DNA of 64,000 bases from Clostridium massiliamazoniense. GTDB taxonomy: Bacteria; Bacillota; Clostridia; Clostridiales; Clostridiaceae. Where the stretch lies: the NCBI RefSeq assembly GCF_001403635.1, contig NZ_LN879466.1, forward strand, positions 460,254 to 524,253, read 5' to 3'. Each line of letters begins with the position of its first letter. Within the stretch, counting starts at the first letter, position 1. The notes below the pieces were generated by a model. It was not told where the DNA came from. It saw only the letters and a program-made list of their open reading frames with translations, and searched no databases. Both the position numbers and the translations under genes were made by a program. This document shows, piece by piece, positions 25,191 through 57,141 of this stretch.

Positions 25191-25301
25191 TTAAAAATAT
25201 TTTAGTTTATTACAAATCTGTAATACTTCTTTAGGATGAATTGTAATTTAGGAATTTTACTATTAGTTTATGGAATTCATATAAAGAGGGAGGAATTAGG
25301 T

Positions 25302-26003
25302 TTGAGTATTTTAGAGGTTAAAAATCTTTGTAGAATATATGGTAAGGGAGAAAATAAGGTTGAAGCATTAAAAAATGTTACATTTAACGTTGAAAAGGGT
25401 GAGTTTGTTGCTATAGTTGGAGAGTCTGGTTCAGGAAAATCTACATTATTACATCTTTTAGGGGGACTTGATAAGGCAACTAGTGGCGAAGTTTTTATAG
25501 ATGGAGAAAATATATTAAATTTAAATGATAATAATCTAGCTATTTTTAGAAGAAGAAGTATAGGTTTTGTTTTTCAATTTTTTAATCTTGTACCTATTTT
25601 AAATGTTGAGGAAAATATAAAGGTTCCAGCACTTCTTGATAATAAAAAAGTAGATGATGAGTATTTTGAAGAAATATTGAAGATATTAAAGCTTGATAAA
25701 AGAAGAAAGCATATTCCAGCAGAATTGTCAGGAGGGCAACAACAAAGGGTTTCTATTGCAAGAAGTCTTATAAATAAACCGGGAATAATTTTAGCTGATG
25801 AACCAACAGGAAATCTTGATTCAAAAACAAGTAAGGAAATTATAGAACTTTTAAAAATTAGTAGCAAAAAGTATAACCAAACTCTTATAGTTATAACCCA
25901 TGATTTAAAAATAGCAGATAAAGCAGATAGAGTTATAACTTTAGAGGATGGGGAAATTGTGAGTGTAAGGGATAAGAGAGGTGTTAATATTGAAAACCTA
26001 TAG
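25302..26003 (+). CDS. ABC exporter ATP-binding protein (LolD/MacB/BceA-like)
   Basis: 233 residues from TTG 25302, which has gggagg 8 bases upstream; longer starts have no site. Walker A GESGSGKST, Q-loop FQFFNLVP, signature LSGGQQQR, Walker B IILADEPTGNLD and H-loop VITHD are all present; ADEPTGNLDS is typical of the MacB/LolD branch. It overlaps the permease gene. Together they form an FtsX-type mechanotransmission exporter, a class that usually deals with antimicrobial peptides, lipoproteins or wall signalling. Confidence 0.94.
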   Translation: MSILEVKNLCRIYGKGENKVEALKNVTFNVEKGEFVAIVGESGSGKSTLLHLLGGLDKATSGEVFIDGENILNLNDNNLAIFRRRSIGFVFQFFNLVPILNVEENIKVPALLDNKKVDDEYFEEILKILKLDKRRKHIPAELSGGQQQRVSIARSLINKPGIILADEPTGNLDSKTSKEIIELLKISSKKYNQTLIVITHDLKIADKADRVITLEDGEIVSVRDKRGVNIENL

Positions 26004-28488
26004 GGATATTACAAAAAGATACCTTTTTGAAAATAGAGGAAGAACTATAACTACTATATGTGGAATAATTTTATCTATATCTCTTATAACTGCTATTATG
26101 TTTTTTACTAAAGGAATACATCAAGGTTTTATAAATAGGGAAATTGATGCAAGTGGAGCATATCATATAGCATTCACAGGACTTTCAAAGGATGAACTTT
26201 CTAGAATGAGTGCACATCCTGCTGTTAAAAATGTAGGATTATTTAATAATTTAGGTCTTATAACTGCAAATAATGGAGAATATGATTATAAGTTTTTATT
26301 AAATGAAGTAACAAGTGGAGAGGAGCATTTATTTCCTTATGATATAGTAGAGGGACGCTTTGGAAAAAATGAGTCAGAAGCGGTTATAGACAAAGTTACT
26401 ATAAAGGAAATGAGGAAATCTATAGGTGATAATGTAACTATAGAAGCTAATGGAAAAAAATCTAACTACAAAGTTGTTGGAATAATAGATAATGAAGCAC
26501 TTAATGAAGCAAAAAAAGAGGGAAGTATAGTAATATCTAAAAGTAATGTTTCATTAGGAGAAGAAACTTTAGCAGCTTTTGAAGGGAAAACAAAGGGATT
26601 AAGAAAAACTTTAGATGAGCTTAAAACTATGACATCTAAGGAAGGAAATGAAAATAATTATTATTTATCTTATATTGGTGCAGGGAAAGATATAAAAAGA
26701 AATGCAGCTATAGTATCAATGGCAGTAATTATAATTTCTCTTGTTATAGTAAGTACAGTATTAGTTATAAAAAATTCTTTTTATATAAGTATAGTTTCAA
26801 GACTTAAAGAGTTTGGATTGTTAAAAGCTATAGGGGCAACTACAAAGCAGCTTAGGTCTATGATTATAAAAGAAGCAAATATTATTGCATTAATATCAAT
26901 TCCTTTTGGTTTGTTTTTTGGAACTATAGCCATAATAGTTGTGGAAAAAGTTTTATATATGATATCTGACCAAATTTTAATAAATATTAAAATAGAGTGG
27001 TGGATTTTAGCTTTAGCAGCTATTTTAGGTTTTGTAACAACTTATATATGTGCTTTTCTTCCTACTTTAGAGCTTAAAAAGATATCAGCACTTGAAGCAA
27101 TTGATAATAGAAATGGAATAAAGAAAGAAAAAATAAAAAGAAGAAAACATAGTTTCATAGAAAAGTTTTTTAATATAAGAACTGTAATGGCTTATAGAAA
27201 TATAAAAAGAAATAAAAGAAGATATAATTCTACAGTTTTAGGTCTTACTATAAGTATGATAATATTCATTGTCTTTTCTAGTTATATGAGAATTGTTATG
27301 AATGATACTTTAGGATATACAGAAGCTAGTTTAGATACTCCAGATATAACAACTTATATTTATAATAATGAAAAAAGTAAAGTAGATTCTTTATTAAATG
27401 AACTTCAAAAGATTAAAGGAATAACTATATTTGAACATAATAGTCTTGGTACAGGGCTTTTGGGACAAATAATTAAAAAGGATAATCTTAATAAAGAAAT
27501 TTTTAATAAAGATAATAATTATATGTCAAGAAATGAGCTAAATAAAGATTATGACATTCTTGCTCCTGCTATTTATAGTACAGAGTTAAGAGAAGATACT
27601 ATTTCTGTTTTAGATAAATATTTAATTGAGGGTAAAATAAATTTAGAGGATATGAAAAAGAATAATGGAATTATAATAGTTAACAATAGGTTTCATTATC
27701 TTGAAAATAAATTTAGAGGAAGAGTTTCAAATTTAAAAGTTGGAGATAAGCTATATTTAGATAGTTATTTTAATATTGAGTATGATGAATCTGGAAAAAT
27801 TAAAAATTATAAAAAGGATGGAGTAAAAGAATTTAATGTAGTTGCAATAGTTGATGAACTTCCAACAGGATTAGAGACTTATGATTATATAGTGGATAAT
27901 AATAGCATAAAAGAACTTTTAGGTGATAATTATAATGATTGCTTAGACCTTGATAGTATTCAAATAAGAATAACAGATTATAACAATAAGGAATCTATAC
28001 ACAATAATATTAAGGAGATATTTGAAAAGTACAGTGTCAATTATTATGATGAAAAAGAGGCTATGAAGGAAAGTAACGAATTTATAAATCAAATTAGATT
28101 TTTAGTCTATGGATTCATAATTGTTTTAGGGCTTATAAGCTGTACTAATATTTTTAATACTATGTCCACCAATATAATTTTTAGAAGAAGAGAAATTGCT
28201 TCCCTTAGGGCAATTGGTATGAGTAAAAAAGAAATAAGAAATATGATTATGAAAGAGGGAGCTTTATATGGAATTATAAGTTTAATTTATGCAACTATAA
28301 TAGGAACAATAATAAACTTTATGTTATATAGGAATCTCTTAACAATAACTAATTTTAAATTCGTTATACATTTTGATGTAATATTATTTATTGGTATAAT
28401 TGGAACTTTAGTAGGTGTTATAGCATCTTTAATACCTCTTAGAAAAGTAGATCATAGTTCTATTATAGAAAATTTAAAGGGTGAATAA
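25990..28488 (+). CDS. FtsX-domain ABC permease
   Basis: 832 residues. TTG 25990 is preferred because gagaggt lies 7 bases ahead; GTG 25981 is possible. Layout: one N-terminal helix (about 15-38), an extracellular domain, three helices (about 245-370), a central helix (about 415), a second extracellular domain of about 250 residues, and three C-terminal helices (about 690-825). The two FtsX domains share LLKAIGAT and SLRAIGMSKKEIR. This eight-helix plan resembles two-domain FtsX permeases. The following two-component system may sense its substrate, but a terminator and a repeat lie between. Confidence 0.92.
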   Translation: MKTYRDITKRYLFENRGRTITTICGIILSISLITAIMFFTKGIHQGFINREIDASGAYHIAFTGLSKDELSRMSAHPAVKNVGLFNNLGLITANNGEYDYKFLLNEVTSGEEHLFPYDIVEGRFGKNESEAVIDKVTIKEMRKSIGDNVTIEANGKKSNYKVVGIIDNEALNEAKKEGSIVISKSNVSLGEETLAAFEGKTKGLRKTLDELKTMTSKEGNENNYYLSYIGAGKDIKRNAAIVSMAVIIISLVIVSTVLVIKNSFYISIVSRLKEFGLLKAIGATTKQLRSMIIKEANIIALISIPFGLFFGTIAIIVVEKVLYMISDQILINIKIEWWILALAAILGFVTTYICAFLPTLELKKISALEAIDNRNGIKKEKIKRRKHSFIEKFFNIRTVMAYRNIKRNKRRYNSTVLGLTISMIIFIVFSSYMRIVMNDTLGYTEASLDTPDITTYIYNNEKSKVDSLLNELQKIKGITIFEHNSLGTGLLGQIIKKDNLNKEIFNKDNNYMSRNELNKDYDILAPAIYSTELREDTISVLDKYLIEGKINLEDMKKNNGIIIVNNRFHYLENKFRGRVSNLKVGDKLYLDSYFNIEYDESGKIKNYKKDGVKEFNVVAIVDELPTGLETYDYIVDNNSIKELLGDNYNDCLDLDSIQIRITDYNNKESIHNNIKEIFEKYSVNYYDEKEAMKESNEFINQIRFLVYGFIIVLGLISCTNIFNTMSTNIIFRRREIASLRAIGMSKKEIRNMIMKEGALYGIISLIYATIIGTIINFMLYRNLLTITNFKFVIHFDVILFIGIIGTLVGVIASLIPLRKVDHSSIIENLKGE

Positions 28489-28577
28489 AATTCTGACTTT
28501 AAACTAGCTATATAGTATCACAGCAGAGAAAGATAATTTTCTAAGGCTATGTTCAAGAATAATGTTGATTATCTAAC

Positions 28578-28618
28578 AAAAAGTTAAATGGATCTTAATA
28601 GATCCATTTAACTTTTTA
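28578..28618 (+). terminator. Terminator of the ABC operon
   Basis: aaaaagttaaatggatc and gatccatttaactttttа-type arm pair exactly over 17 bases (28578-28594, 28601-28617). Confidence 0.85.
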
Positions 28619-28768
28619 GTTTAATATTGATTAATTTATATATTTAATTAAATATGTAATAATAGATTATAAAATTAATTTATATCAATAATTCTTTATA
28701 AATTAAATATTAGTTTATATTATTTTAATATTACAATAAGGGAAAATTTGTTATTATTAAATTATGCT

Positions 28769-28894
28769 TTATCTGATAGCTAGAGGCTGTAATACTTCTA
28801 TCTTATATAAATAAACAGCATCACGCTTCTAGATAACTACGACTAAGCATTCAGATGGAGTCAAAACTCCACCTGAATTAAGTCTACGTTTATA
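28769..28894 (+). repeat. Module M repeat, plus orientation
   Basis: Starts atctgatagctagaggctg, then aatacttctatctt, acagcatcacgcttctagat, the hairpin ttcagatggagt/actccacctgaa and the tail gaattaagtctacgtttata. Its end is 32 bases from the response-regulator start. Rest of the 28489-28925 gap: terminator and AT-rich DNA, plus a P-like scrap actagctatatag at 28502. Confidence 0.9.
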
Positions 28895-28925
28895 TGAAAG
28901 GTAATGTGATAAAGGGGGATTATGG

Positions 28926-29615
28926 GTGAGTAAGGTTTTACTTTTAGAAGATGATGATGCGCTTGCTATGGCAATAGAATTTAATTTAGTGGATGAAGGA
29001 TTTACTGTAAGTAGAGTAGGAACTGTAAAGGAAGCAAAAGAGAAGTTTTCTGAAGAGTTTCATATGGTGCTTTTAGATGTTATGCTTCCTGATGGAAGTG
29101 GATATGATGTATGCAAATATATAAGGGAAAAAAGTAATGTTCCTATAATATTTTTAACTGCTTGTGATGATGAAGTTAATGTTGTTTTAGGCCTTGAAAT
29201 AGGAGCTGATGATTATATAACTAAGCCTTTTAGGGCAAAGGAACTTATTACTAGAATGAAAGCTAATATAAGAAGGTATAAGTTATCATCAGGAAAAGGA
29301 ATTATAAAAAGTGGTGATTTAGAAGTTAATATAAATAGTTGCAGTTGTAGTATTGATGGAGAAAATTTATCATTAACTCCAGCGGAGTACAAGCTTCTTC
29401 TTGTATTTTTGAAAAATCCTATGAGTGTTCTTAGTAAATCACAGCTTTTAGATAGTATTTATGATTATGATATGGCTTTAGTGGATGATAAAACTTTAGC
29501 TGTTTATATAAGAAGACTTAGAGAAAAAATAGAGACAGACTCAAGCTCTCCTCAATACATAGTAAATAAAAGAGGATTAGGTTACATATGGAATAAAAAT
29601 GTAACAAGGCATTAG
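28926..29615 (+). CDS. OmpR-family response regulator
   Basis: 229 residues from GTG 28926, with aaaggggg upstream (the ATG at 28922 runs into a stop). Receiver with EDDD (8-11), Asp51 in LLDVMLPDG and TKPFRAKELI; winged helix ending KRGLGYIWN. Forms an operon with the kinase 12 bases on. Lies behind an FtsX-type exporter, so a peptide-antibiotic or envelope-stress response is a reasonable inference. Confidence 0.95.
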   Translation: MSKVLLLEDDDALAMAIEFNLVDEGFTVSRVGTVKEAKEKFSEEFHMVLLDVMLPDGSGYDVCKYIREKSNVPIIFLTACDDEVNVVLGLEIGADDYITKPFRAKELITRMKANIRRYKLSSGKGIIKSGDLEVNINSCSCSIDGENLSLTPAEYKLLLVFLKNPMSVLSKSQLLDSIYDYDMALVDDKTLAVYIRRLREKIETDSSSPQYIVNKRGLGYIWNKNVTRH

Positions 29616-29626
29616 GGGGAGAGACA

Positions 29627-30874
29627 ATGGATGTTTTTGAAAATAAGGAACTCTTGAAATCATCTAAGAATTTTATAATTTTAGGGGTTATAGCTTTAAT
29701 TTTTATTAATATATGTAACTTATATATTTCTACAATATATAAAAAGGCATTTATAAATTATCAAGGAAGGACTACAGCAACTATTTTGGAGTTGTATCCA
29801 GAAGCAGAAGAGGCTGTTGTGAGAGCTATCACTAAGGGGCAAGATATAGAACGTGAAAATAAAGGGAAAGCTATTCTTAATAAGTACATGTACAGTGAGA
29901 ATATTAAGAATGGGCTTTTTAATGATACTGTAGGAATAGGGAATAAGAGTTTTTATTTATTGAATGGTTTTATATTAGTTTTATTATCAATTTCTATATT
30001 TTTAAATTATAAAAGTCATAAGAAGATTTATGAAAAAATAGCTCTTATAGAGAAATGGGTTGATGACTTACTAACTAATAAGGAACAATTTAAAATAAGG
30101 GATATAGAGTCAGGAGAAATATCAAAATTACTTATGTCTATTAATAAAGTTAATAGAATTGTATGGGAAAGTCTTGAAAATGTAAAAAAGGAAAAGGAAT
30201 TTTTAATTAACCTTTTATCTGATATATCCCATCAGCTTAGAACTCCTCTTAGTTCTATAATGCTCAATAATGAGCTTTTGTGTAAAAGGGAACTTAAGCG
30301 TGAAATGCAAATTAAGGTTTTAGATAGTAATGAAAAACAGCTTGTAAGGATGCAAACTCTTGTAGAAAATCTTTTGAAACTTGCAAAACTAGATGCTGGA
30401 GCTATAAAATTCAAGAATGAAAATACTCCAATAAAAGAGTCAGTTGCAGGAGCAGTAAATCATTTGAAGGAAATTGCTGAAAGTAATGAAGTTACCATAA
30501 GTATTAGAGAGGAAAGCAAAGGAAGTAATAATCTTTATTATGATAAGTTTTGGATGGAAGAAGCTCTTCTGAACATTATTAAAAATTGTATAGAGCATTC
30601 CTATGAAAAAGGAGAAGTAAGCATTACTATAAGGGAGGAAAATATCTTTACTAGAATAATAGTTGAAGATAAAGGAGAAGGAATACATAGTGATGAAATT
30701 GATTATGTATTTAATAGATTTTTTAAGAGTAGTAGAAGTAAAAAGAGAGATAGTGCAGGCATAGGTCTAGCATTAGCTAAAACCATAATTGAAGGACAAA
30801 ATGGAAATATAAGTGTAAGTAGTGAAATTGGGGTAGGAACTAAATTTGAAATAGCACTTTTACAAAATTATTAA
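29627..30874 (+). CDS. Sensor histidine kinase
   Basis: 415 residues, gggggag before ATG 29627. Two membrane segments (about 15-36 and 108-127) enclose an extracellular part of about 70 residues, short for ligand binding. HAMP-like linker, HisKA with His202 in SDISHQLRTPLSS, HATPase_c with NIIKNCIEHS, VEDKGEGIH and GIGLALAKTI. Gln after the His (SHQLRTP) is the less common variant of the H-box seen in several Clostridium kinases. Partner of the preceding regulator. Confidence 0.94.
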   Translation: MDVFENKELLKSSKNFIILGVIALIFINICNLYISTIYKKAFINYQGRTTATILELYPEAEEAVVRAITKGQDIERENKGKAILNKYMYSENIKNGLFNDTVGIGNKSFYLLNGFILVLLSISIFLNYKSHKKIYEKIALIEKWVDDLLTNKEQFKIRDIESGEISKLLMSINKVNRIVWESLENVKKEKEFLINLLSDISHQLRTPLSSIMLNNELLCKRELKREMQIKVLDSNEKQLVRMQTLVENLLKLAKLDAGAIKFKNENTPIKESVAGAVNHLKEIAESNEVTISIREESKGSNNLYYDKFWMEEALLNIIKNCIEHSYEKGEVSITIREENIFTRIIVEDKGEGIHSDEIDYVFNRFFKSSRSKKRDSAGIGLALAKTIIEGQNGNISVSSEIGVGTKFEIALLQNY

Positions 30875-31449: not shown

Positions 31450-31632
31450 ATGGAATTACTTAGTGGTATAATGAGTTTGCTTATAATATTATTAGTAATA
31501 GTTCTTTGTGGAAATAATAATGGATCTGGTGGAACTTTCCATGGTGGAGATAACTCAAGTGGCGGATGTGATTTTTTTAGTAGTCACGACGGGTGCGATT
31601 GTGGGGATTTTGGAGACTGTGGGGGCGATTGA
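31450..31632 (+). CDS. Small anchored protein with Cys/Gly/Asp-rich tail
   Basis: 60 residues; ATG 31450 follows acagg|agg. Residues about 3-20 form one hydrophobic helix. The rest is Gly, Asn, Ser, then GGCDFF, HDGCDCGDFGDCGGD with five Cys and many Asp. Two His are also present. Such tails bind metal or cross-link; some peptide toxins and metal-binding small proteins look similar. No homologue recognised. Neighbouring genes are heme oxygenase (converging) and a tiny membrane peptide. Confidence 0.7.
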   Translation: MELLSGIMSLLIILLVIVLCGNNNGSGGTFHGGDNSSGGCDFFSSHDGCDCGDFGDCGGD

Positions 31633-49930: not shown

Positions 49931-51706
49931 ATGCCTTTTAATAAGAAGTTATTAGCATTAGTAGTTGCTACAACAGCAGCAATGGCAGTAGGAACTAATG
50001 CTCATATAGATTTAAATGAAAATAATAATTCACAAAGTAAGGAATTAAAGATAAAAAACCAAAAGTTATTGATTCAGAGTAACAATGATGATATTTCAAA
50101 TACAATAAATGATTCAGATACTATAATTATGGCTGGAAATGGGAAAGCTTATACTGATTTACAAAATATAAAGTTTAATTTAAATGGAGTACCTGTAAGT
50201 GGAAAAACGATTGCAGTAACTGATGATAGTGGGAATTTTATTGGGGGAGGAATACTTTCTCAGGGAGTAGTCCCAGTTTCTCAATTAGAAGAAGGTCAAA
50301 CTTTATTGGGAAAGAAAAATATAATTATTTCTGTCCAGGGATGTACAGAACCAATTGTAGTAAAAAATAAAGCTATAAATATGTTAAATTATGAAGTAAC
50401 TAAAGTAAGTGGTCTAGAACCTGGAGAAACTTATAATATAGATGCATATCCAGAATCACAGAATAAGACAGTAACTGCAAATAGTAATGGAGACATATTT
50501 ATTAAAAGAGATAATTCTTATTCTTACATTAATTTATATAAAGGTGGGAAATTAATTAAGACACTGCCTGGAATGGGACCAATATCAGGAAGTGATGAGA
50601 GCTATGCAATACCAAGTTTAAAAAGTCCTCAAACTAATATATTACCATACTTTGTTATAGGAAAGGGCGATATAATAATAAATTTAGGGACTGTAAATAG
50701 AAAATTTGTTGATAGTGATGGAAAAGTAATAAAGGAAGATAGTTTTACGGGAGAAGTAGGAACTAGTATACAAAAAGCAGATATTCCAAAGGGATATGAA
50801 GTTAAGAGTATTATTATTGAAAAGAATAGAAAAGTTGTTTCAGGAGGCTTAGATCCAACAAGTATAGGAAACTCGAAGATAACTGTAATTTATAATTTAG
50901 AAAGATATGGTAATGCTGTAGTAAAAGTAATTGATAGTCAAACAGGAAAAGTATTATCAGGAGCAACAGTAAATATAGATGGACAAACATTGCATACAAA
51001 CTCAAATGGGGAAGTACAAGTAAGTGATGTTAAACCAGGAGAAATAAGCGCAACAGCTTCAGATGAAGGTTATACTAATGGACAAACTTCAGTTAAGTTA
51101 GATCCAAATGGAAAGGCAACAGGAATAATTTCCTTAGCACCAGTAACGGGCAAAGTTATAATAACAGTAAATGATGATAATGGACTGTTAAAAAATAAAA
51201 CTATAATAGTTAATGGGAAAGAAGAAAAAACTAATGATAGTGGAGAAATTACTGTAGGAACAACTCAAGGAATTAATCATATAAAAGTAGCTTTAAAGGG
51301 ATATAATGATAAGAATATTGATGTAAATGCTACTACAGGAAGTACTAAATATAAGACAATAACATTAACTCCTAAAACAGCTTCTGTAAGAATAAATATT
51401 ATAGGAAAAGATGGTAATATTGTTTCAAGTAAAATAGTAAATGAAAATGATCCACAATTAGTTATACCAAAGGGTTATAAAGTATCTAGTATAACTGTTA
51501 ATGGAGAAAAAATTGGAAAAGATAATCTTACAAAATCAGATTTGAAAAACAAAGATGTGTCAATTAATATTGTTAATGATAAAAATTTACCTAATACAGG
51601 AGTAGGTGGAGAGCTAGGCTCTAATATAGAAGACTTGGTTACTTTAGCTTCTATCATAGGAATGTTAGGTATAGGAGAAGTTTTCAGACGTAAAAATAGA
51701 AGGTAA
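49931..51706 (+). CDS. LPXTG cell-wall anchored surface protein
   Basis: 591 residues. Signal peptide (MPFNKKLLALVVATTAAMAVGTNA), then an unassigned part, a MucBP-like stretch around residues 255-310, two carboxypeptidase-regulatory-like beta repeats (about 330-405 and 410-480: KVIDSQTGKVLSGATVNIDG, NSNGEVQVSDVKPG), a third partial MucBP-like unit, sortase motif LPNTG, hydrophobic helix and RRKNRR tail. caaaggag precedes ATG 49931. Probably an adhesin or spacer on the wall; ligand unknown. Confidence 0.92.
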   Translation: MPFNKKLLALVVATTAAMAVGTNAHIDLNENNNSQSKELKIKNQKLLIQSNNDDISNTINDSDTIIMAGNGKAYTDLQNIKFNLNGVPVSGKTIAVTDDSGNFIGGGILSQGVVPVSQLEEGQTLLGKKNIIISVQGCTEPIVVKNKAINMLNYEVTKVSGLEPGETYNIDAYPESQNKTVTANSNGDIFIKRDNSYSYINLYKGGKLIKTLPGMGPISGSDESYAIPSLKSPQTNILPYFVIGKGDIIINLGTVNRKFVDSDGKVIKEDSFTGEVGTSIQKADIPKGYEVKSIIIEKNRKVVSGGLDPTSIGNSKITVIYNLERYGNAVVKVIDSQTGKVLSGATVNIDGQTLHTNSNGEVQVSDVKPGEISATASDEGYTNGQTSVKLDPNGKATGIISLAPVTGKVIITVNDDNGLLKNKTIIVNGKEEKTNDSGEITVGTTQGINHIKVALKGYNDKNIDVNATTGSTKYKTITLTPKTASVRINIIGKDGNIVSSKIVNENDPQLVIPKGYKVSSITVNGEKIGKDNLTKSDLKNKDVSINIVNDKNLPNTGVGGELGSNIEDLVTLASIIGMLGIGEVFRRKNRR

Positions 51707-51714
51707 CAAACAAA

Positions 51715-51753
51715 AAAGGATTTATGTTTTTTATAAGCATAAATCCTTTTTTA
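51715..51753. terminator. Bidirectional terminator
   Basis: aaaaggatttatg pairs with cataaatcctttt, with A run before and T run after. Shared by the LPXTG gene and the tiny genes converging on it. Confidence 0.9.
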
Positions 51754-51790: not shown

Positions 51791-51856
51791 TTATTTGATG
51801 TAGTATCCAAAAAGTCCACAGCTAAGAGCCTCCAAAATTAAATATATATTTTTCAT
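51791..51856 (-). CDS. Tiny peptide C of a tandem set, 21 aa
   Basis: Minus-strand ATG 51856 with agaggtg upstream; product MKNIYLILEALSCGLFGYYIK. It shares LILEA, G.FG.Y and I with peptides A and B upstream, so it is the third paralogue in a row, lacking the acidic tail of the others. No signal peptidase site. It is too short to be recognised by family; function unknown. Confidence 0.65.
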   Translation of the reverse strand: MKNIYLILEALSCGLFGYYIK

Positions 51857-51880
51857 AAAAATCACCTCTAAAGTTAGCTT

Positions 51881-51961
51881 TTAAAAAGTTTCTTCACTAT
51901 TTAAATAGAAACCAAAAATTCCTGTAATAATAGCATTTAATATTAAAATAAGTTTATTCAT
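51881..51961 (-). CDS. Tiny peptide B of a tandem set, 26 aa
   Basis: Minus-strand ATG 51961 with aaggagg (51970-51976) 8 bases upstream, the best possible site. Product starts MNKLILILNAIITGIFG and ends FYLNSEETF. About 16 hydrophobic residues followed by NSEE. Nearly the same frame, length and tail as peptide A, 28 bases upstream. Looks like a recent tandem duplication kept under selection for reading frame. Confidence 0.7.
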   Translation of the reverse strand: MNKLILILNAIITGIFGFYLNSEETF

Positions 51962-51989
51962 TTAAATTTCCTCCTTGGTAAAAATTGTT

Positions 51990-52070
51990 TTAGTGTATTT
52001 CTTCACTATTTATATAAAATCCAAAAGTTCCTGTAGCAATAGCCTCTAATATAAATAGTACTTTTTTCAT
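51990..52070 (-). CDS. Tiny peptide A of a tandem set, 26 aa
   Basis: Minus-strand ATG 52070 with aaggagg (52080-52086) 9 bases upstream. Product starts MKKVLFILEAIATGTFG and ends FYINSEEIH. First of three tandem paralogues. Amphipathic or weakly membrane-seeking; not an AgrD precursor (no leader plus charged recognition tail of that kind and no agrB). Candidates are signalling peptide, small toxin or phenol-soluble-modulin-like peptide, all inference. Confidence 0.7.
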   Translation of the reverse strand: MKKVLFILEAIATGTFGFYINSEEIH

Positions 52071-52300
52071 AGTTAAGTTCCTCCTTGAGATTTGTTATTC
52101 TTTATACTTTTATTATATTAAGATTAGAGTTAAAGTGATATTTAAGAAGCTTTCTTTAAGCTTTCATTTTTGTAATATTTAAAGGATTTATGAATAAAGT
52201 AGATTAGGTTAATATTTCTTAATTTAAACTTAAATTAAGGTTGTAGAAAATAAATAAAAAAGTATGATAGAATTACTATTAAGAAAGAATTTAAAGCTAG

Positions 52301-52424: not shown

Positions 52425-52438
52425 ATGAGGTGGAAACT

Positions 52439-53236
52439 TTGAAAGATATAAAAGGAATAGTATTTTTTGACGTAGATGGAACCCTTGTAGATTGTTGGAA
52501 GGGCATTGAAAAACCTACAGAAAAAACAAAAGAAGCAATAAGAAGATTAAAGGAAAATGGTTATTTAACATTAATAGCTACAGGAAGACCTATGAGCTTT
52601 TTAAGTGACGAATTAAAGGAATTAGGTGTTAGTGGCTATATAACTTCAAATGGAACTTATATAGAACTTAATAATAAGGTCATATTAAATGAAGAAGTTA
52701 AACAAGAGATAGTTGATGATATAATAGATTTTTGTGGGAAAGAAAAAATTGATTATATATTAGAGGGACAAGCCTATAGTTATATATCAACTAAATTAGA
52801 TGATAGAGTAGGAACTTTAGTTAGAACTTTTTCTTTGCCTATAGAAAAAATTCAAGATAGTTGGGAAGGGCCTATATCAGTAAATAAATTAATTGTTATA
52901 GATAATGGAACAGAAAGTTTCCAAAAGATATGTGAAAAATATAAAGATGATTTTATATTTATGCAACATCCAGGAAAAAATTCCTATGATATGTATAGAA
53001 AGGGTTACACAAAAGCTTATGGAATAGAAGCTTTACTAAAGGCTATAGATATTCCAAAGGAAAAAACTTATGCTTTTGGTGATGGTGAAAATGACATTGA
53101 GATGTTTGAACTTGTTCAATATGGGATAGCAATGGGTGGAAGCCATGAAAATTTATTAAAACAGGCATATAAGACTACTGATGATGTAGCTAATGATGGA
53201 ATCTATAATGCTTTAGTTGAAATGAAGTTGATTTAG
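52439..53236 (+). CDS. HAD-superfamily phosphatase, Cof/IIB type
   Basis: 265 residues from TTG 52439, which has gaggtgg 6 bases ahead; GTG 52430 overlaps that site. Motif I FFDVDGT, motif II ATGRP, Lys in KGYTKAYGIEALLKAI, motif IV GDGENDIEMFE; the large C2B cap lies between. Hydrolyses small phosphorylated compounds such as sugar phosphates or cofactor phosphates; exact substrate unknown. Confidence 0.92.
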   Translation: MKDIKGIVFFDVDGTLVDCWKGIEKPTEKTKEAIRRLKENGYLTLIATGRPMSFLSDELKELGVSGYITSNGTYIELNNKVILNEEVKQEIVDDIIDFCGKEKIDYILEGQAYSYISTKLDDRVGTLVRTFSLPIEKIQDSWEGPISVNKLIVIDNGTESFQKICEKYKDDFIFMQHPGKNSYDMYRKGYTKAYGIEALLKAIDIPKEKTYAFGDGENDIEMFELVQYGIAMGGSHENLLKQAYKTTDDVANDGIYNALVEMKLI

Positions 53237-53862: not shown

Positions 53863-56800
53863 TTAGTTGTTAAAAGTAGGAACATTAAATGTGAATTTAT
53901 CTCCTTCGCTATATATATAGCTAAGGCTCTTTATAAGTTCACCCATTGTTGAGCCATACCAAGCAGTAGTAGCATATTGATGCCATATATTACTTAATAC
54001 AGGGTTATATCTAAGTTCATAAGGAGTTATTTGATTGAAACTACTATGAATATATGAATTAGATATAAATTGTGCAGCTCCTGCTATAGCACTTGATACA
54101 GATGTCCAGCCATGATTATAGGCATAAGTAGTACCTAAAATTAGTGCTCTATTAGGGAAAGCAGAAGTATTATCATAAGCTCCTATTCCAAATAAATTAT
54201 ATACAGTTACTGGACTTGATAGAGGAATCATTTGATATCCAACTAAAACTCCATTTGAATAAATAGGTGCGTTAGTATTAGCTATTTGAGTTATAGTAAC
54301 ACCACTTGCAAGATAGCTAGTACCTCTTCCAGTTTCTAATAAACATTGAGCAACAAAGTATAAAGGATCTAGATTAAATTCTTTAGCAGCATCATAAAAA
54401 GCTTGTCCTTGACCACTTAATACGCCATCACCATTTAATGCATTATTAAGTTTATTAACATTTATATTTCTAAAAGTATTAACAGTTAAAAATTGATAGA
54501 TATTATTAGCTGTTGCAGGATTTATATAGTTTCTATACTCAGATTCTGAATAATAAGGCCAATTGTTATATTGAGCATTTATATATTGTTGTAATGTGCC
54601 TGGGTATTTAGTTGTAATAACAGTACTATTTTTACCAAAATGTAAATGATAATAGTTATTATTGGATGAAGAACTATTGTCAGAATTATTATTACTACTA
54701 TTGTTACTGCTGTTATTATTAGGAGAAACATAGTAAGCATAAACATAAGCAACTTGTCCATTATAGTTTATTTCATACCAACCATTAACCTCTTTAATAA
54801 TATTAACAGTGTCACCTTCGTTTAAGTAAGCAATTATTTCATTATCAAGGCTAGGGCCTGTTCTGACATGAAGATAAACCCCATTACTTAAATTACAAAC
54901 AGTTCCTGTGTACTTAGTAGCAGGAATAGAATTTGTTTGATTACTATTTCCATTATTATTACTGTTATTGTTATTGTTATTGCTGTTATTAGGACTTACA
55001 TAAGCACCATAAACATAAGCAATTTGACCATTATAATTTATTTCATACCAACCATTAACTTCTTTTATGATATTAACTGTAGCACCTTCGGTAAGGTCAG
55101 CAATAATATTATAGTTAAGTCCAGCACCACTTCTAACATGAAGAACAACACCAGGATTTAGGTTACAAACAGTTCCTGTATATTTAGTGGCAGGGATAGA
55201 ATTAGTAGAATTATTACTACTATTTCCGTTATTATTACTGTTATTATTACTGTTATTGCTATTATTAGGAGAAACATAGTAGGCATAAACATAAGCAATT
55301 TGTCCGTTATAGTTTATTTCATACCAACCATTAACTTCTTTAATAATGTTAACAGTAGTTCCTTCATTTAAGTAAGCGATTATTTTATTATCAAGGCTAG
55401 GACCTGTTCTAACATGAAGATAAACACCATTGCTTAAATTACAAACAGTTCCTGTGTACTTAGTAGGAGGAATAGAACTTGTTTGATTACTATTTCCATT
55501 GTTATTGCTGCTATTATTATTAGGATTTACATAAGCACCATAAACATAAGCGACTTGTCCATTATAGTTTATTTCATACCAACCATTAACTTCTTTAATA
55601 ATATTAACAGTAGTACCTTCAGTAAGGTCAGCAATAATATTATAGTTAAGTCCAGCACCACTTCTAACATGAAGAACAACACCAGGATTTAGGTTACAAA
55701 CAGTTCCAGTGTATTTAGTAGCAGGAACAGAGCTTGTTTGATTACTATTGCTATTATCATTATTGTTATTAGTATTTATATAAGCGCCATAAACATAAGC
55801 AATTTGTCCATTATAGTTTATTTCATACCAACCATTAACTTCTTTAATGATATTAACAGTAGTACCTTCAGTAAGGTCAGCAATAATATTATAGTTAAGT
55901 CCAGCACCACTTCTAACATGAAGAACAACACCAGGATTTAGGTTACAAACAGTTCCGGTGTATTTAGTAGCAGGAATAGGGTTTGTTTGAGTACTATTGC
56001 TATTATCATTATTGTTGTTATTAGGATTTACATAAGCACTATAAACATAAGCAATTTGTCCATTATAGTTTATTTCATACCAACCATTAACTTCTTTAAT
56101 AATGTTAACAGTATCACCTTCATTTAAGTAAGCAATTATTTCATTATCAAGGCTAGGGCCTGTTCTAACATGAAGATAAACACCATTACTTAAATTACAA
56201 ACAGTTCCCGTATATTGAGTGGCAGGGATAGAGTTTGTTGAATTATTATTGTTATTGTTATTGTTAGAATTTACATAGGCAGCATAGACATAAGCAATTT
56301 GTCCATTGTATTCTATTTCATCCCAACCATTTACTTCTTTGATAATATTAACAGTATCACCTTCACTTAAATAAGCTATTATACTGTTATCAAGGCTAGG
56401 GCCTGTACGTACATGAAGATAGACACCATTACTTAAGTTACAAACAGTTCCAGTAGATGTAGGTGTAGAACTATTAGAAGAATTATTGTTTGAAGTAGAA
56501 TTTGTATTGATATAAGAAGCATAAACATAAGCAATTTGACCATTATAGTTTATTTCATACCAATTACCTATTTGATTTATAATATTAACAGTATCACCGT
56601 TATGTAAATCACCAATAATACTATAAGTTAAACCAGCTCCGGAACGAACATGTAAGGATACACCTTGATAAAGATTATAAACAGTTCCAGTTCTAGAAGT
56701 TGCTAAAAAAGAAACTGCTTTAGGATTATCTTTAGGGTGATTATTGTCTTGTTGTGGAGTTATAGAACTAGAATGAACAAAGCCATGCCCACCATTAAAT

Positions 56801-57141
56801 TTAATTTTATACCAATCATTAGACTTTCCAGTTATATGAACAGTACTAGTGTTTTTTAATTTTCCTAAAATCATACTTGAATCTTTAGGTGTATTTCTAA
56901 CATATACAGTATCAGATGATGAATTTATTTTTCCGGTAGTATCTAAGTGGGAAACATCAATTTTATCCTTATCATTTAAGGAGTTAGAATCCGTATTTTT
57001 TTTTGAATCTTTAACTAATAATTTTTTGTTTAATTTAGTTACTTTTTTTCCACTATGTATATTATTCGAAGTGGCTATGTTGTGAGAGGCACAGATCGTA
57101 CCAACAACAGCTAAAGTAGCTAATATTTTCTTTTGTTTCAT
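53863..57141 (-). CDS. acp: Autolysin: nine SH3b repeats plus N-acetylglucosaminidase (Acp-like)
   Basis: 1092 residues. Signal peptide, a divergent SH3b unit (about 75-135), eight closely similar SH3_3 units of about 75-85 residues joined by Asn/Ser linkers, and a C-terminal glucosaminidase domain (about 840-1092) with catalytic Glu in CLLETGRGTSYL and FGIGAYDN. It cleaves the glycan chain for cell separation. Units fall into two types, NLSNGVYLHVRTGPSLDN and NLNPGVVLHVRSGAGLNYN, in the order A A B B A B A after a first variant unit, showing unequal recombination. From memory the C. perfringens Acp has a similar plan; unit number may vary among strains. gaaggaga precedes ATG 57141. Confidence 0.93.
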   Translation of the reverse strand: MKQKKILATLAVVGTICASHNIATSNNIHSGKKVTKLNKKLLVKDSKKNTDSNSLNDKDKIDVSHLDTTGKINSSSDTVYVRNTPKDSSMILGKLKNTSTVHITGKSNDWYKIKFNGGHGFVHSSSITPQQDNNHPKDNPKAVSFLATSRTGTVYNLYQGVSLHVRSGAGLTYSIIGDLHNGDTVNIINQIGNWYEINYNGQIAYVYASYINTNSTSNNNSSNSSTPTSTGTVCNLSNGVYLHVRTGPSLDNSIIAYLSEGDTVNIIKEVNGWDEIEYNGQIAYVYAAYVNSNNNNNNNNSTNSIPATQYTGTVCNLSNGVYLHVRTGPSLDNEIIAYLNEGDTVNIIKEVNGWYEINYNGQIAYVYSAYVNPNNNNNDNSNSTQTNPIPATKYTGTVCNLNPGVVLHVRSGAGLNYNIIADLTEGTTVNIIKEVNGWYEINYNGQIAYVYGAYINTNNNNDNSNSNQTSSVPATKYTGTVCNLNPGVVLHVRSGAGLNYNIIADLTEGTTVNIIKEVNGWYEINYNGQVAYVYGAYVNPNNNSSNNNGNSNQTSSIPPTKYTGTVCNLSNGVYLHVRTGPSLDNKIIAYLNEGTTVNIIKEVNGWYEINYNGQIAYVYAYYVSPNNSNNSNNNSNNNGNSSNNSTNSIPATKYTGTVCNLNPGVVLHVRSGAGLNYNIIADLTEGATVNIIKEVNGWYEINYNGQIAYVYGAYVSPNNSNNNNNNSNNNGNSNQTNSIPATKYTGTVCNLSNGVYLHVRTGPSLDNEIIAYLNEGDTVNIIKEVNGWYEINYNGQVAYVYAYYVSPNNNSSNNSSNNNSDNSSSSNNNYYHLHFGKNSTVITTKYPGTLQQYINAQYNNWPYYSESEYRNYINPATANNIYQFLTVNTFRNINVNKLNNALNGDGVLSGQGQAFYDAAKEFNLDPLYFVAQCLLETGRGTSYLASGVTITQIANTNAPIYSNGVLVGYQMIPLSSPVTVYNLFGIGAYDNTSAFPNRALILGTTYAYNHGWTSVSSAIAGAAQFISNSYIHSSFNQITPYELRYNPVLSNIWHQYATTAWYGSTMGELIKSLSYIYSEGDKFTFNVPTFNN

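Follow-up and report, generated by a model that had tools for sequence, protein, structure and literature searches.

Three tandem micropeptide genes of Clostridium massiliamazoniense: a probable membrane-peptide operon under Bce-type (antimicrobial-peptide) control

In the window analysed here, a 64-kb stretch of Clostridium massiliamazoniense DNA taken as a whole, three tandem genes for peptides of 21–26 residues probably form a stand-alone operon of membrane micropeptides within the clostridial antimicrobial-peptide (Bce-type) regulon, as judged by comparison of their sequences and of their promoter. Bce-type modules allow Firmicutes, including clostridia, to survive bacitracin, lantibiotics and similar peptides, and work continues both on the communication between transporter and kinase and on the further membrane-protecting proteins of the Bce response. 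For a part in either, a conserved family of micropeptides linked to the Bce regulon offers a direct candidate that can be tested with little effort. The case also illustrates how modelling a promoter can uncover genes that fall below annotation length. The reading starts from computed results, namely the open reading frames, their conservation, the type of their promoter and the other target genes of that promoter.

Three tandem genes and their relatives

A sequence-only reading of this DNA had placed three tandem tiny frames of 26, 26 and 21 residues here, each with a strong ribosome site, and the frames were found where and on the strand it had put them (Table 1). All three ribosome sites lie at normal spacing from their starts, and peptide 3 has an alternative GTG start at 51865 that would give 24 residues. 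The shared pattern described in that reading held in eight invariant columns (M1, I7, L8, A10, G14, F16, G17 and Y19) and failed in one detail, NSEE not being terminal in the 26-mers, both of which carry two further residues after it. Chance was assessed with a rule that counted ATG frames of 18–32 residues preceded by a strong ribosome site. Three are present on the minus strand between 51701 and 52429 (729 nt); among 2000 dinucleotide shuffles of this region, 1995 contained none, five contained one and none contained more. Under the same rule the whole window yielded one other frame, a 31-residue hydrophobic peptide at 42811-42716 (-) with a strong ribosome site. A frame for a 60-residue Gly/Asp-rich peptide, also with a strong ribosome site, was seen at 31450 (+).

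Table 1. Features of the peptide operon and its promoter region in the window
Feature	Position	Strand	Basis
Peptide 1, 26 aa, MKKVLFILEAIATGTFGFYINSEEIH	51990..52070	-	frame list, alignment, profile search, pN/pS
Peptide 2, 26 aa, MNKLILILNAIITGIFGFYLNSEETF	51881..51961	-	frame list, alignment, profile search, pN/pS
Peptide 3, 21 aa, MKNIYLILEALSCGLFGYYIK	51791..51856	-	frame list, alignment, profile search, pN/pS
Ribosome site AAGGAGG of peptide 1	52080..52086	-	read in sequence
Ribosome site AAGGAGG of peptide 2	51970..51976	-	read in sequence
Ribosome site AGAGGTG of peptide 3	51863..51869	-	read in sequence
80-nt promoter element	52101..52180	-	ungapped alignment A5; R2 match 52179-52101
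Candidate Bce-type response-regulator box TTACA-AAAA-TGAAA	52162..52175	-	one mismatch to TNACA-N4-TGTAA
Conserved GAAAG...TTAAATAT part of the element	52138..52154	-	alignments A5, A7
Predicted -10 hexamer TATAAT	52112..52117	-	read in sequence
Terminator hairpin between peptide operon and convergent surface-protein gene	51712..51752		scan, + strand only

The operon stands alone between a divergent gene for a Cof-type HAD hydrolase (52430-53236) and a convergent surface-protein gene (49931-51706). The hairpin that separates it from the latter is nearly symmetric and, by eye, reads as a two-way terminator. In Clostridium mediterraneense the HAD hydrolase neighbour lies on a different contig from the peptides, so that synteny is not conserved.

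A profile of the three window peptides found five tandem copies in C. mediterraneense (G001): four belong to one type, a pair of them with identical protein sequence, and the fifth is different. Among 206 Clostridiaceae genomes two more, G073 and G006, have one copy each. A profile built without these two copies matched them at E 5.9e-10 and 0.007, and one that included them at 3.0e-14 and 2.3e-11. With the profile that contains these relatives, matches at E <1e-10 occur in 3/206 family genomes and the remaining matches are at E 7.5e-4 or weaker. A further peptide, found in genome G071 via the promoter element described below, looks intermediate between this first group of peptides and the second group. 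The sequence-only reading had called the frames translated paralogues, to be checked by copy counts in related genomes and by dN/dS among the copies. Among 45 copy pairs, compared over few sites, 43 had a pN lower than pS, the exceptions being Cm1-G73 (ratio 1.02) and Cm4-G73 (1.53). Together with the copies in three family genomes and the G071 peptide, this supports the view that the frames are real paralogues and probably translated, and we regard the three tandem, unannotated frames as confirmed.

Outside these genomes the search for relatives gave little. There was no convincing relative in samples of 391 genomes of the class and 398 of the phylum, nor, beyond the three known genomes, among 225 genomes of the order. 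The A1 peptide search of genome contigs and viral contigs returned pattern matches and no relative at E 1e-3, and plasmids and phages yielded no relatives either at the DNA level or by tblastn. For 15 of the 16 members of A6, Pfam, NCBIfam and PHROGs contained no fitting family, and the best E-values for A6 members (0.017, 0.89 and 0.047, respectively) are all weak. Six characteristic sequence strings were absent from the literature searched, and the literature searched on small proteins in Bce modules held no description of these peptides; most subscription journals lay outside the scope of both searches.

Gene neighbourhoods are unlike one another between first-group loci, and terminator-like hairpins 3' of the peptides were also seen by eye at the C. 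mediterraneense and G073 loci. The G006 peptide gene is convergent with a GGDEF/HD-type gene (L064:76-863 and L064:2756-2830), which comes after agrB- and agrD-like genes, and the G073 peptide gene is convergent with an XRE-type regulator gene (all named by eye). These two settings, together with the length and hydrophobicity of the peptides, would suit signalling peptides, that is, pheromone precursors. However, neither the agrBD-like genes, one gene away from the G006 relative, nor the XRE-type regulator recurs at other loci, and the window contains no linked receptor, making a signalling role highly unlikely.

A promoter element common to the peptides and to Bce transporters

Most of the information at this locus is held by the promoter element, which the sequence-only reading had overlooked. 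The 80-nt element of the window is also present at bceA promoters and at the C. mediterraneense, G073 and G071 peptide loci. It aligns without gaps over about 75–90 nt between the window, C. mediterraneense and G073, at nearly equal distance from the first ATG. Upstream alignment scores were 32 for window and G073 and 35 for C. mediterraneense and G073, against a shuffle maximum of 27 (200 shuffles each); window and C. mediterraneense scored 25, which 3/200 shuffles reached. The element opens with a box of the form TTACA-N4-TGTAA, in line with TNACA-N4-TGTAA, the consensus given in a passage of PMC9020739 for regulators of bceAB-type genes; the match to this consensus is exact in C. mediterraneense and has one mismatch each in the window, G073 and G071. 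The conserved GAAAG part may be a second half-site, and the window element has no good -35 hexamer.

Two full-length sequence models were used. R1 was built from the window, C. mediterraneense and G073 elements; it contains the window's own element and was not counted as independent proof. R2, which was so counted, was built from alignment A7 of 21 elements lying 5' of bceA genes and includes no peptide locus; in one of the 21 (L089) a gene fragment lies between element and bceA. In the 64-kb window R2 found one significant site, the peptide promoter, at 27.1 bits and E 2.7e-7, with the next-best match at E 0.96, these E-values being rough by the tool's own statement. The other peptide promoters scored 44.7 (C. 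mediterraneense), 47.9 (G073) and 44.3 bits (G071). On the strength of its promoter type, membership of the peptide operon in the Bce regulon is well supported. Against it, the window box has its one mismatch, and upstream of the G006 relative the element is absent, with all three alignment comparisons at the shuffle mean and no R2 match.

Other descriptions of the promoter were dropped. A part-element pattern, CGATAT-N19-21-TAWAATT, was rarer than its reversed control in three genomes (7 versus 39 matches), which is why full-length models were used instead. SigD-type and WalR-type readings, based on consensus sequences, were abandoned when the element was found before bceA genes.

The genes behind the element were surveyed with R1. 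At E 0.5 or better it matched in 179/206 genomes, many of these matches probably due to chance; the best places outside the training loci reached E near 2e-8. We examined 91 places, namely the 89 listed with an R1 E of 0.0114 or lower plus two C. mediterraneense places of weaker score, and classified by script the 400 nt 3' of each, two places being counted twice. An ABC ATPase signature followed within 400 nt in 50/91 places and in the opposite direction in 0/91. A short membrane-anchored protein of the 138-residue type followed in eight, a transglycosylase in five, an FtsX permease directly in two and a tiny peptide in eight, two of these being training loci. The remaining 20 had something else or nothing, and several of them look like chance matches inside genes. 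One place scored as other (L154) proved on checking to have an FtsX permease. The permease behind the G073 element matched only BceB and PsdB among solved structures (E 1.3e-36 and 1.1e-28), and the kinase beside the C. mediterraneense bceAB genes matched BceS best (E 7.9e-37). The same element stands before a Bce system in both genomes, at R1 E 0.003 in G073 and as weaker elements (E 0.016 and 0.037) in C. mediterraneense. Because this promoter type is common to Bce transporters, transglycosylases and other envelope genes, the peptides are read as parts of the antimicrobial-peptide response.

The ~138-residue protein was seen in L081, L097, L108, L118, L126, L132 and L137 and merely as a fragment in L089, where the ATPase gene lies just past the 400-nt limit; the L097 copy had no match in Pfam or NCBIfam. 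The transglycosylase-only proteins, of about 225–250 residues, lie behind the element in L096, L106, L117, L124 and L141, one of which was checked.

The element could also be bound by another OmpR-type regulator, in which case the link to antimicrobial peptides would be indirect. Related regulators bind similar repeats, and the 223-residue regulator at one peptide locus (L162) is of OmpR type with no specific NCBIfam match above cut-off. Against this, the box is the one published in the cited passage as the consensus of regulators that control bceAB-type genes, and an ABC ATPase gene lies behind more than half of the places; we consider such a regulator improbable.

A second, probably related peptide group

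Five of the peptides at the eight peptide places share the pattern MKK-x-x-E-x-I-K-V-x5-F-x-G-Y-D-E-E-x-F. A profile of these five matched 22 of the 206 genomes at E <1e-7, five of them its own sources, and 27 at E 0.01. We examined 24 second-group loci, leaving out six weaker matches (L184-L188 and L191); 21 of the 24 peptides make up alignment A9, from which the near-duplicates L168, L174 and L179 were omitted. No convincing second-group match was found in 148 class-sampled genomes, none in an A9 search of viral contigs, and none among solved structures with the second-group profile. Over columns 1–19 the second and window groups aligned with an hhalign probability of 74% and E 2.9e-5, a score equalled by one of 300 column shuffles. 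The two groups are probably, not certainly, homologous, with moderate support from these alignments.

The promoter type recurs here. A box with at most one mismatch lies within 130 nt of 21/24 second-group loci, compared to 5.6% of shuffles, and starts at -91 to -104 in 19 of these 21. R2 matched just upstream of 17 loci (E 1e-12 to 0.09), including L177, where the box lies further out, and did not match at the other seven. The next same-strand gene is a regulator followed by a kinase (bceRS-type) in six loci, bceA in two, an MprF-flippase-like gene in four and a transglycosylase in one; the other 11 have other genes or none and adjoin no recognised defence gene. Family libraries were used to check the transglycosylase and one protein each of the regulator and MprF-like kinds, the rest being assigned by eye. 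Wherever regulator and kinase come next (all six loci), bceA lies 1.8–2.9 kb further downstream behind an element of its own. The MprF-flippase-like gene that was checked, L173:1759-2772, lies between a second-group peptide and bceA, and similar genes were seen by eye in L174, L176 and L183.

In 6/24 second-group loci the peptide frame comes first, ahead of regulator and kinase, and such frames might be leaders whose translation attenuates that of the defence genes downstream. However, at the window, C. mediterraneense and G073 loci the peptides are followed by a terminator-like hairpin with no further same-strand gene in between, and attenuation does not require arrays of three or five complete peptides, each behind a ribosome site; we judge this extremely unlikely. 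We tentatively suggest, as a real possibility, that membrane peptides of 21–30 residues are a regular component of the clostridial Bce response: a single gene would head bceRS/bceAB clusters, and unlinked genes would have been multiplied into arrays whose products act as dose-dependent effectors or as transporter-kinase adaptors.

Peptide properties and possible action

Each peptide has one hydrophobic stretch within its 21–26 residues, with a best 16-residue mean hydropathy of 0.8–2.5 over seven peptides. A polar residue occupies position 9 in 9/9 first-group peptides and small residues occupy positions 10, 14 and 17 in at least 8/9; Lys, Arg or Asn is found at positions 2–3, and the tail is polar with varying charge. 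These features would fit a short membrane helix. From here we infer how the operon is activated in vivo, how its products insert into the membrane and how they act. A Bce-type transporter and kinase would sense a cell-wall-active peptide, the phosphorylated response regulator would bind the box (read 52175-52162) and activate the promoter, and the short mRNA would be translated from its three strong ribosome sites. The peptides would then settle in the cytoplasmic membrane as a mostly hydrophobic helix of ~16 residues with a short polar tail. Most likely they would support the response, either by modulating the Bce sensor or transporter or by altering the membrane around the Bce proteins.

Four options had been offered in the sequence-only reading, and small membrane regulators fit best. 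PSM-like surfactants, signalling peptides and type I toxins lost ground, given the antimicrobial-response promoter, the lack of significant amphipathicity in single window peptides and the lack of a recurring exporter or receptor. The staphylococcal phenol-soluble modulin alpha operon encodes tandem peptides of 20–26 residues, each with its own ribosome site, and the array architecture and peptide size seen here are similar. Secreted PSM-like or leaderless-bacteriocin peptides could harm other cells, with Bce transporters as self-protection, and in C. mediterraneense amphipathicity is significant for three of the four different peptides (p 0.003–0.006), the family-average profile being marginal (p 0.038). 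In contrast, no window peptide is significant alone (p 0.39, 0.07 and 0.40) and neither are the G073 and G006 peptides; the window peptides have a net charge of -1 to +1. Unlike PSM alpha, the weakly amphipathic window peptides are regulated differently, under control of the antimicrobial-response type, and have no linked exporter; none recurs at first-group loci, and the second group heads defence operons. We consider a secreted, harmful product unlikely.

Type I toxins, small membrane toxins kept down by antisense RNA, resemble the window peptides in being short and hydrophobic and in having small stand-alone transcripts, as predicted for the window operon, and promoter-like matches are present on the plus strand. 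However, the eight promoter-like matches in the region lie within shuffle expectation (5.9, sd 2.3), and the clostridial toxins covered in passages of a review (PMC6563280) have 34–59 residues and antisense antitoxins, no sign of which was seen at this locus. An activated defence-type promoter and strong, open ribosome sites are not suggestive of silencing either, and we hold a toxin to be very unlikely.

For the preferred reading, a membrane micropeptide of the Bce response, adaptor action is plausible by analogy, because some Bce-type systems have small accessory proteins. In Staphylococcus aureus the BceAB-type system VraDEH includes VraH, which is, like the peptides here may be, a small membrane protein, encoded in the operon of a Bce-type transporter and needed for high-level resistance (PMC7438565, PMC5985334). 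As passages of these papers describe it, VraH has two helices and VraE as its interaction partner, and its gene comes behind those of the transporter, whereas the clostridial peptides, compared by description only, have at most one helix and are encoded alone or before bce genes. YsaD of Lactococcus lactis YsaDCB is a short peptide whose gene likewise belongs to a Bce-type transporter operon, and it seems to influence the signal that reaches the kinase; in passages of PMC7438565 it is described as secreted, whereas the window peptides, again compared by description only, would stay in the membrane. The tandem multiplication seen away from bce genes would instead favour an effector that acts on the membrane in a dose-dependent way.

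Two other regions of the window were noted. At 25236-30874 (+), genes for an ABC ATPase, a large permease, a response regulator and a kinase (names by eye) stand in a row, where the R2 scan showed no Bce-type element. At 53863-57141 (-) lies a gene for a 1092-residue protein that, by eye, is secreted, contains many SH3-like repeats of almost identical sequence and has a C-terminus resembling a glucosaminidase.
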